This document shows positions 33,361-35,675 of a DNA stretch of 64,000 bases, in pieces. The translations under genes were made by a program, and so were the position numbers. Numbering within the stretch: the stretch's first letter is position 1; every line of letters starts with the position of its first letter. The notes beneath the pieces were generated by a model. That model saw nothing but the letters and a program-made list of their open reading frames with translations, was not told where the DNA came from and ran no database searches. Source of the DNA: an uncultured Verrucomicrobiota bacterium (GTDB taxonomy: Bacteria > Verrucomicrobiota > Verrucomicrobiia > Verrucomicrobiales > Verrucomicrobiaceae). The stretch spans positions 1 to 64,000 of the forward strand of contig CAINGK010000150.1 in assembly GCA_903848465.1 (NCBI GenBank). Direction: 5' to 3'.

Positions 33361-34059
33361 ATGAAACCCATCGTTCAAATTTCCCTCGACCTCACCAACA
33401 TCGACGAAGCGCTCGAAACCGCCGCCATGGCCCTGCGCGCCGGCGTGGACTGGCTCGAAGCTGGCACACCGCTCATCCTGGCTGAAGGCCTGCACGGTGT
33501 CCGCGCCCTGAGAAAAGCCTTCACAAACATCCCGATCGTCGCCGACCTCAAAACGATGGACGGCGGCTATCTCGAAGCTGAAATGATGGCCAAGGCCGGA
33601 GCCACCCACGTCGTCGTCATGGCCCGTGCGCATGCCGAAACGGTGAAATGCGTTGTAAAGGCTGGCAAAGACTTTGGCTGCAAGGTCATGGGCGACAACA
33701 TGATCTCTGAGAACATGATCGACGGAGCCAAATGGCTGGAAGATCTCGGCTGCGACTACGTGATTCATCACATCGGTTACGACGAGCGCCGCGGCATCGC
33801 TGCCGCTGGCAAACGCATGCCAAGCCCGCTGGATCAGCTCCGCGAAGTCGTCAACGCCGTCAAAATCCCGGTTCAGGCTGTCGGCGGCCTCAGCTTGGAG
33901 CAGGCCATTCAGTGCCCCAAATATGGCGCTCCGCTTGTCGTCCTCGGTGCCCCGCTCACCATCGACGCCGACGCCTTCAAGACGGCAGACGGCAATCTCG
34001 AAGCTTCGCTGCGTATGATTTGCGAAGCCGTGCACGCTCAGGACGTTCCTGCTTTTTAA
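33361..34059 (+). CDS. Hexulose-6-phosphate synthase-like aldolase/decarboxylase
   Basis: A 232-residue TIM barrel of the orotidine-phosphate-decarboxylase suprafamily (HPS/KGPDC group). The catalytic DxKxxD is ADLKTMDGG (Asp62, Lys64, Asp67), preceded by the typical LEAGTPLILAEG. Members make hexulose 6-phosphate from formaldehyde and ribulose 5-phosphate, or decarboxylate 3-keto-L-gulonate 6-phosphate. Here it sits in a sugar-catabolic regulon, so a decarboxylase or retro-aldol role on an oxidised sugar phosphate is also possible. It is the first gene of operon A, under the shared 25-base element. Confidence 0.85.
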   Translation: MKPIVQISLDLTNIDEALETAAMALRAGVDWLEAGTPLILAEGLHGVRALRKAFTNIPIVADLKTMDGGYLEAEMMAKAGATHVVVMARAHAETVKCVVKAGKDFGCKVMGDNMISENMIDGAKWLEDLGCDYVIHHIGYDERRGIAAAGKRMPSPLDQLREVVNAVKIPVQAVGGLSLEQAIQCPKYGAPLVVLGAPLTIDADAFKTADGNLEASLRMICEAVHAQDVPAF

Positions 34060-34091: not shown

Positions 34092-34121
34092 AATTCGCGG
34101 ATATTCGTGACCATTCGCGTT
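34092..34121 (+). repeat. 30-base repeat, left copy
   Basis: ATTCG occurs at 34093, 34103 and 34113, so the repeat is built of decamers. 28 of 30 bases match the reverse complement of 34525-34554, and 26 of 30 match 34586-34615. It ends six bases before the ATG of the GxxExxY gene. Confidence 0.85.
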
Positions 34122-34127
34122 GAGACC

Positions 34128-34502
34128 ATGGACTTCCAAGACGGCACCTACGAGATCATTGGCAGCGCCATGCGCGTCCACAGATCTCTAGGTCCCGGCC
34201 TGCATGAAAAACCGTATGAGAACGCGCTGGTTCTTGATCTGCAGAGCATCGGCATCCAGGTGCAACAGCAGCGCGCCTATCCTATTCGCTATCTCAACTC
34301 CATCGTCGGCGACTGCATTCCTGATATAACCGTCAACGACTCTGTACTTGTCGATGCAAAATCCATCGACACCATCGGTGAAAATGAGATGGCCCAAATG
34401 CTCAATTATTTGCGCATCGCACGACTTGAAGTCGGTCTGATCATTAACTTCAAGAATCCCAAGCTGGAGTGGGTCAGAAAAGTCAAAACCCAGCCGGAAT
34501 AA
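34128..34502 (+). CDS. GxxExxY protein (PD-(D/E)xK nuclease-like)
   Basis: A 124-residue protein of the GxxExxY family. The name motif is GLHEKPY (residues 24-30), after VHRSLGP. A possible PD-(D/E)xK core is IPDITV (Asp66) and VDAK (Asp76, Lys78), though most members have Glu where Asp76 lies. The ending ARLEVGLIINFKNPKLEWVRKV is typical. These proteins are widespread in Verrucomicrobia and related phyla, often in many copies and embedded between unrelated genes, and their function is unknown. Inverted repeats flank it closely, and it interrupts operon A. Confidence 0.9.
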   Translation: MDFQDGTYEIIGSAMRVHRSLGPGLHEKPYENALVLDLQSIGIQVQQQRAYPIRYLNSIVGDCIPDITVNDSVLVDAKSIDTIGENEMAQMLNYLRIARLEVGLIINFKNPKLEWVRKVKTQPE

Positions 34503-34524
34503 CTTTTTCACTCATTATACTTTC

Positions 34525-34554
34525 AACGCGAATGATCACGAATAGCCGCGAATT
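34525..34554 (-). repeat. 30-base repeat, inverted right copy
   Basis: Begins 22 bases after the GxxExxY stop. It is the reverse complement of the left copy with two mismatches. Directly after it, a short fragment of the repeat (ATCGCGAATT) follows. Confidence 0.85.
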
Positions 34555-34585
34555 ATCGCGAATTCAGAACTCTCTTATTCGAGCC

Positions 34586-34615
34586 AATTCGTGGATATTC
34601 GTGTTCATTCACGTT
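34586..34615 (+). repeat. 30-base repeat, third copy, direct orientation
   Basis: Same orientation as the left copy, with four mismatches. It lies 34 bases before the start of the alcohol dehydrogenase gene and so becomes part of its leader. Confidence 0.8.
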
Positions 34616-34649
34616 AACACCTCTTTCAACCTCTCTCAATAACCACCCC

Positions 34650-35675
34650 ATGAAATCCGCCGCCGTCGTCAATTACGCGCCTGAAAAAGGCTCCGTCGAA
34701 ATCCGTGAAATCGAAACGCCCACCATTGGCAGCGAGGACGTGCTCCTCGAAGTCGCCAATGTCGGTGTTTGTGGCTCCGATCTGCACCAGTGGACCGCCG
34801 ACCACTCCTGGCCGGTGAACTACCCGGTCGTGCTCGGCCATGAGTTCGGCGGACGCATCGTCGAAGTCGGCAAGGATGTGGAAGGCTGGAAGGAGGGCGA
34901 CCGCGTCGTCTCCGAAACCGCCGCCATCATCAGCCCGAACAATCCGATGACGAAGCGGGGTCTCTACAACCTGGACCCCACTCGCAAGGGCTTCGGCTAC
35001 GGCGTGAACGGTGCAATGACGAAGTATGTGCGCGTGCCTAGCCGCATCTTGCATCATGTGCCAGATCAGCTCCCCTTTGAGCAGGCCTGCCTCACCGAAC
35101 CCTGCTGCGTGGCCTACAGTGCCGTGGTGAAGAACGCAAACATCGAGCCCGGAGACCGCGTCGTCGTACTCGGCCCAGGCACCATCGGCATTCTCTGTGC
35201 TGCTATGGCACGCCTTTGTGGTGCACAGGTCGCCATTGTCGGCCTGCCGCAGGATGCGCATCGTTTGGAAATCGCGAAGCAGTATGGCTGCGAAGTCATC
35301 ATTGGCGATGCCAAGCCCTGGGCCACCGCTCGCGACGGCCTGGGTTGCGATGGAGTGATTGACGCTGCAGGTGCGAGCGTCACGCTGAAGATCGCGCTCG
35401 ACATCGTGCGCCCGGCTGGATGGATCAGCAAAGTCGGCTGGGGTCCTCAGCCGCTCGGATTCAACCTTGATCCGCTGGTGCAGAAGAACATCACGCTGCA
35501 AGGCAGCTTCAGCCACAACTGGCCGATCTGGGAGCGCGTCATCGCCCTGCTCAGCAGCGGTCAGTTTGATGTGAAGCCAATTATTGGTGGTGTCTGGCCT
35601 GTGACCGAGTGGCACGAAGCCTTTGAGAAGATGCACAAGGGCGAAGTCGTGAAGAGCGTGCTGCGTCCGGTCTGA
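34650..35675 (+). CDS. Zinc-binding alcohol dehydrogenase family protein
   Basis: A 341-residue medium-chain dehydrogenase of the sorbitol or threonine dehydrogenase type. The catalytic-zinc ligands are Cys41 (VGVCGSDLH) and His64-Glu65 (GHEFGG), with a later Glu in LTEPCCVAYSA. The NAD-binding Gly motif is VVVLGPGTIGIL. The four-Cys structural zinc lobe normally near residues 90-112 is absent; that region reads SPNNPMTKRGLYNLDP. It probably oxidises a polyol or sugar alcohol. It belongs to operon A, separated from the aldolase by the GxxExxY cassette. Confidence 0.9.
   Translation: MKSAAVVNYAPEKGSVEIREIETPTIGSEDVLLEVANVGVCGSDLHQWTADHSWPVNYPVVLGHEFGGRIVEVGKDVEGWKEGDRVVSETAAIISPNNPMTKRGLYNLDPTRKGFGYGVNGAMTKYVRVPSRILHHVPDQLPFEQACLTEPCCVAYSAVVKNANIEPGDRVVVLGPGTIGILCAAMARLCGAQVAIVGLPQDAHRLEIAKQYGCEVIIGDAKPWATARDGLGCDGVIDAAGASVTLKIALDIVRPAGWISKVGWGPQPLGFNLDPLVQKNITLQGSFSHNWPIWERVIALLSSGQFDVKPIIGGVWPVTEWHEAFEKMHKGEVVKSVLRPV

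Follow-up and report, generated by a model that had tools for sequence, protein, structure and literature searches.

Inverted tandem-repeat arms around GxxExxY genes: a probable small palindromic element with a nuclease-like gene

GxxExxY genes, at the locus described here and across many phyla, lie in short cassettes bounded by inverted arms made of tandem units, and we think it probable that they supply the coding portion of a widespread small palindromic element (about 450-740 bp), REPtron-like in its organization, whose nuclease recognizes its own arms. As far as sequence can tell, the cassettes have defined ends and matched arms, are present or absent at given sites, show a coupling of arm motif to protein subfamily, are accompanied by gene-less (solo) copies that co-occur with the cognate gene, and encode an intact active site. 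Taken together, this looks like an undescribed minimal element, mobile or formerly mobile. The GxxExxY family is annotated in many phyla without a function, and the open papers that were searched give no account of its context; the open-access literature yielded no earlier description of repeats flanking GxxExxY, TIGR04256, or PF13366 genes, or of their repeat words. Matched tandem-repeat ends on most copies give the family a probable role.

The window, by which we mean the whole 64-kb stretch of DNA analyzed, holds one such gene between genes for an aldolase and a zinc alcohol dehydrogenase (ADH) (Table 1). The 30-base inverted repeats that the initial annotation placed around the gene are there exactly as it gave them, with 28 of 30 positions identical, and the third copy it noticed 31 bases further on is present as well. 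The two flanks of the gene reach a local alignment score of 54, against a maximum of 28 in 200 shuffles; the flanking pair is the top inverted repeat with a span below 1.2 kb in the window (41 nt, 85%); and the decamer triple ATTCGYGNNN is found at three places in the 64 kb, all of them at this locus. A chance origin of the repeat is ruled out by the shuffled flanks, by shifted controls, and by the window-wide ranking of inverted repeats. The encoded protein, with the motif GLHEKPY, matches TIGR04256 (E 3.1e-35) and PF13366 (E 4.7e-33) above the curated cut-offs (121 bits vs 35; 114.5 bits vs 22), and these are the only profile matches of the cassette, in which the search found no transposase domain and no PF05635 (S23p/IVP).

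Table 1. Features of the GxxExxY locus and its neighbors, in window coordinates
Feature	Positions	Strand	Remarks
Aldolase gene, OMP-decarboxylase/HUMPS family	33361..34059	+	Pfam PF00215, E 4.9e-24; upstream operon member
Upstream arm	34092..34121		Decamers ATTCGCGGAT/ATTCGTGACC/ATTCGCGTT; GTT terminus towards gene
GxxExxY PD-(D/E)xK gene	34128..34502	+	124 aa; PF13366 + TIGR04256
Downstream arm, inverted	34525..34554		28/30 vs upstream arm
Third repeat copy	34586..34615		26/30 vs upstream arm; orientation opposite to second copy
Complete solo palindrome	34525..34615		Second + third copies; AAC...GTT termini
Right junction	34618..34627		Host CACCTCTTTC resumes just past the palindrome's GTT(AA); vs G047 empty site taaTTCCACCTCTTTCCAACCCCatg
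Zinc alcohol dehydrogenase (ADH) gene	34650..35675	+	Pfam PF08240/PF00107; downstream operon member

In its layout the locus consists of a single arm, the gene, and a full palindrome. The upstream arm stops 6 bp ahead of the GxxExxY start codon, and the palindrome has the same architecture as dispersed gene-less copies (by comparison with solos L286-L305 and with genomes G030 and G013). Its arms have the less common of the two orientations, the in type, found at 11 of 114 classifiable loci. The simple picture of a gene between two ends, which the initial annotation had drawn from this locus, holds for the class and describes this locus only approximately, given the solo palindrome downstream and the reversed arms. 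Atypical in these respects, the copy in the window is in our reading an older example that has been rearranged, and three sampled species have it in common.

The generality of the arrangement was assessed by taking the 350 bp next to the domain match on either side and aligning the upstream stretch with the reverse complement of the downstream one, a score of at least 30 being counted as inverted flanks; intervals of equal size, shifted 1 kb within the same loci, served as controls. GxxExxY loci were sampled from the best-scoring matches, and several of the genomes are incomplete. Inverted flanks were found at 76 of the 95 loci in the genus (shifted controls, 0/180), at 27 of 30 in the phylum (0/60), and at 61 of 78 (2/141) in a set of named genomes from many phyla that includes Acidobacteria, Bacteroidota, Chloroflexota, Cyanobacteria, Planctomycetota, Pseudomonadota, Spirochaetota, Omnitrophota, and archaea, with taxa as given in the record titles. 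At a score of at least 32, the last set retains 59 of its 78 loci and none of its 141 controls; all three sets pooled, inverted flanks occur in 2 of 381 controls. GxxExxY genes in general are thus housed in cassettes with defined inverted ends, and bare flanks at the other loci, the finding that the initial annotation had named as fatal to its proposal, are not what these loci show. Within the window genome, which has seven PF13366 genes, other members have inverted flanks of different sequence and the same style (L001, CCACGGAATACAC...; L005, GGCCGCAAAAAGGCGC...), and those beside L003 (GCCGCAGAGGGGC...) are weaker.

Small, scattered, multi-copy genes do not share this trait as a matter of course, since PIN-domain genes, which fit that description too, were so flanked in 0 of 30 cases. 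A scan of 772 kb from two genomes listed every inverted repeat, whether or not it enclosed a gene, and each of the four GxxExxY genes in this DNA proved to sit inside one; the remaining gene-sized inverted repeats enclosed two RAYT-like genes, a fragment of alaS, and another ORF. The two RAYT-like genes, which we take to be RAYT-type transposases by their HxH sequence motif rather than by an HMM test, lie in a REPtron/TIRtron-like arrangement (G076:C1, ~442.7-443.3 kb and 523.6-524.7 kb) in a genome that also has GxxExxY cassettes. RAYT genes are the known case of a gene within inverted repeats. A two-domain form of GxxExxY (~270 aa; L045, L054, L056, L101, L111, L118), in which the second domain looks degenerate, is mostly armless; L109 and one copy in G076 are exceptions that have arms.

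The arms themselves are ~30 bp long and consist mostly of three tandem units with a period of 8-11 bp (mode, 9), and the outer end is typically AACC/GGTT or AAC/GTT, as in L338 (TTTAACC-ACGGAGGAC-ACGGAGAGC-ACGGAGG). Cassettes are ~520 bp in length (10-90%: 451-743). Up to 250 bp from a GxxExxY gene, tandem triples reach a density of 2.30 per kb; more than 500 bp away at the same loci, the density is 0.005 per kb. Across loci the arms point out at 103 and in at 11, with 43 unclear, and a complete palindrome stands on both sides of the gene at L053, L062, L104, L131, and L141. In four of the five larger sets of orthologues, the arms of one cassette resemble each other more closely than they do their counterparts in other members of the set (for example, 55 vs 35-39 and 49 vs 30), a gap that may stem in part from picking arms by mutual alignment. 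Judged by this similarity, the two arms of one cassette change in concert. The ATTCGTGTTC decamer also forms a perfect head-to-tail array of ~10 units (G007:C42:43568-43664), which suggests slippage expansion of arm units.

The unit repeated in the arms varies between cassettes, yet it tracks the protein tree. On a FastTree phylogeny of 203 proteins, which was built from few columns and has weak forks as a result, 136 tips could be labelled with an arm class, assigned through simple motif counts; these require 13 changes, while none of 500 shuffles needs fewer than 51. The genus-only tree likewise requires 13, against at least 38 in shuffles, and after thinning to below 60% identity there are 8, the minimum possible for nine classes, against at least 9. 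When the comparison was confined to non-orthologous contexts, protein identity correlated with arm similarity (Mantel r 0.49; 0/2000 permutations). One subfamily retains ACC-CRCRRAG-n2/3 in three copies in Prevotella, cyanobacteria, Rhodospirillaceae, and a methanogen. Since it is protein subfamily rather than host that the arm motif tracks, the proposal that the repeats are the protein's own recognition sites gains support, of an indirect kind, and the label of a minimal self-targeting element is one that we infer for the cassette from these patterns. With some ten arm words in nature, and a protein clade to go with each, a protein-DNA code would also be directly testable.

The window protein keeps the residues expected of an active site (the E of GxxE, the D of PD, and DxK), and of the 96 copies in the genus, 94 preserve the catalytic D and (E/D)xK. 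L006 and L154, the remaining two, are also without arms. For an AlphaFold2 model of the window protein (pLDDT 92), the best PDB matches listed are PD-(D/E)xK nucleases, with Cas4 SSO0001 (Z 9.7), 3ijm (Z 8.3), and Hjc 1gef (Z 7.0) among them. The protein is, by this model, a PD-(D/E)xK core with a predicted Cas4/Hjc-like fold, an assignment that speaks for the superfamily rather than for a function. A search of PDB sequences returned no relative. Two other roles were considered and set aside: a defense system, with no PADLOC match, and phage cargo, with one relative in 2.9 million viral contigs.

Palindromes of the same type are also dispersed without a gene. The ATTCG decamer family has ~107 matches in the window genome and the reversed control pattern has 0, repeat copy numbers here being counts from pattern searches. 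If a cognate gene is defined as one with at least 50% identity to the window protein, then among 47 genus genomes the family is present in 7 of the 7 that have the gene (7-107 hits) and in 10 of the 40 that do not (Fisher 3e-4; MWU 5e-6). A second family, CACGGAAT, for which gene calls come from sampled loci only, shows the same trend (MWU 9e-5; 0.02 once the cassette's own arms are subtracted). Solos in G008 and G012 have sharp ends, AACCACGAAT...ATTCGTGGTT, with interiors and flanks that are unlike. A second MITE, with ends CAATGTCGTTAAGTTAAG...CTTAACTTAACGACATTG, carries the ATTCG palindrome inside it (L025, L028, and others in the window genome), and since many of the ATTCG copies in that genome lie within this MITE, a simple copy count exaggerates the activity of the element itself. 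The initial annotation would have counted it against the idea if repeats were found equally often without the gene. In raw counts the repeats are in fact more numerous without the gene than with it, and such an excess is as expected of non-autonomous copies; per kilobase, the densities given above place the repeats near the gene. The cassettes also suggest where a great many short tandem palindromes of intergenic DNA, so far without explanation, may come from.

Comparison of related genomes bears out the suggestion that the cassette splits an operon. The gap between the aldolase and ADH genes is 590 bp in the window; with the cassette present it is 580-590 bp (G000, G030, and G013), and in 12 relatives, where the two genes are neighbors in the way the initial annotation had proposed to look for, it is an empty 12-22 bp, so that the cassette is either present or absent. 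In three further genomes the gap is 67-71 bp and contains other sequences, a GTCGGAC palindrome in two of them, and in one it is 89 bp. Among the short sequences found in this gap are a GTCGGAC tandem palindrome at L084 and L091 and one of the TTTGACTGATTTAAATGAC type at L082. No obvious target-site duplication was found at the aldolase-ADH junctions, where the left edge is blurred. Between pheS and pheT, a ACAGGATT-type cassette is found in ~16 species and is absent (14-55 bp) in 12. There the gap of G025 (L390) holds a single ACAGGATT arm, and its closest relatives have the whole cassette; going by sequence, this is a one-arm scar. In four genomes (G041, G047, G008, G040) this position is taken by palindromes that belong to other families, either solos or halves. 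L042 and L048, which are not orthologous, resemble each other in DNA (82%, 607 bp) up to a point ~10 bp beyond the arms. The patterns are consistent with discrete units that are gained and lost. Many cassettes have a long history of vertical inheritance, as the ~16 species with the pheS-pheT copy illustrate, and current activity may therefore be low.

Arms are not confined to GxxExxY. The PF05635 four-helix-bundle genes (23S IVP/S23p-like; L157-L186, L447-L476) also have inverted arms, with tandem units of 7-10 nt, at 26 of 30 loci in the genus and 20 of 30 in the phylum (controls, 1/115), and the arm words (e.g., GTTGACGGTTGTTTACGGTGGTT, GGGAGTGAGGGAGTGA, CGTGAATCGTGAATCG) differ from those of GxxExxY. 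IVP genes do not encode nucleases, and since their arms are of the same style, it may be that no nuclease is needed. One could then imagine MITE- or REP-like palindromes that disperse independently, through some other transposase or through replication errors, and on which GxxExxY and IVP genes travel as passengers, their proteins being bystanders or arm-binding regulators. Solos do outnumber cassettes, and the window-genome MITE does hold an ATTCG palindrome, as passengers on independent repeats would lead one to expect. Passengers should not, however, show an arm motif that tracks the GxxExxY subfamily across hosts and phyla, and neither the PIN genes nor the gene-blind scan, in which almost no other gene lay in such ends, accords with them. 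We consider this account unlikely, if still a serious one.

Two further accounts assign the arms a role in expression. A host-beneficial regulator, now non-mobile, might have its operator in the arms and bind the dispersed copies as well; long vertical retention at pheS-pheT and the short distance from arm to start codon in the window would both be natural for it. Such a regulator sits poorly with a strongly conserved nuclease active site, with the turnover of cassette, scar, empty site, and unrelated palindromes at one position, and with matched arms in many phyla plus archaea, and we judge it improbable. Alternatively, RNase III could cut the gene out of the mRNA once the arms have paired with each other in the transcript, in the manner of the 23S rRNA intervening sequences (IVS), the element spreading by other means. 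Insertion within operons (aldolase-ADH, pheS-pheT) is in keeping with this idea, as is the architecture shared with S23p/IVP genes; in Coxiella, the IVS has tandem heptamers ahead of the S23p ORF (PMC4990558). Mismatches between the arms show no excess of G.U (94 vs 97), however, which indicates that the arms are not conserved as an RNA stem, and a stem has no need of tandem units. We regard excision from RNA as very improbable.

In the reading that we favor, an element whose nuclease recognizes its own arms, the protein would bind the repeated unit, possibly as one protomer per unit and three per arm, and would cut at the arms or at a hairpin or cruciform that they form. Host repair or replication might then copy or move the element, and likewise the solos derived from it, by analogy with the action proposed for RAYT/TnpA-REP on REP/REPIN palindromes. 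In a larger context, we may be dealing with an unrecognized class of minimal mobile element, in which a stand-alone PD-(D/E)xK nuclease recognizes an arm word present three times per inverted arm and mobilizes its own gene and gene-less derivatives, protein and word having co-diversified within genomes and across many phyla, and in which the IVP genes form a parallel, heptamer-type class; we advance this tentatively, as plausible rather than probable. If it is true, GxxExxY would be a non-HUH counterpart of REPIN-RAYT, and the long-unexplained S23p/IVP genes may belong to the same element style.

Several known systems resemble the cassette in part. The predicted fold likens the protein to Cas4 and Hjc, at middling Z, and the lack of a detectable PDB sequence relative sets it apart from these and other PD-(D/E)xK proteins. 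Like the 23S rRNA IVS, the cassette is an element of ~0.4-0.7 kb with one small ORF and tandem short repeats beside it; unlike the IVS, which lies in an rRNA helix, it is intergenic, its protein is unrelated to S23p/IVP, and its arms bear no sign of RNA-stem selection. With MITEs and insertion sequences it shares a gene-bearing, autonomous-like copy accompanied by short copies with common ends, but it encodes no DDE, HUH, serine, or tyrosine transposase, no obvious target-site duplication was seen at its junctions, and its arms are short tandem arrays. REPtrons (REP + RAYT) and TIRtrons (TIRYT) combine a small, single-domain nuclease gene with inverted repeats or TIRs in repeat-specific pairs, and have dispersed gene-less palindromes, the repeats being commoner in genomes that have the gene (PMC3733652, PMC8049555). 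The GxxExxY cassette is no REPtron: its PD-(D/E)xK enzyme is unrelated to the HUH/Y1 tyrosine transposase (RAYT/TnpA-REP), and its arms, of many different families per genome, are three tandem 8-11-bp units that end in AACC/GGTT or AAC/GTT and have no GTAG tag. Its ends are nevertheless dispersed as palindromes too and are commoner where the gene is present, and like the REPtron it is retained vertically over long periods.
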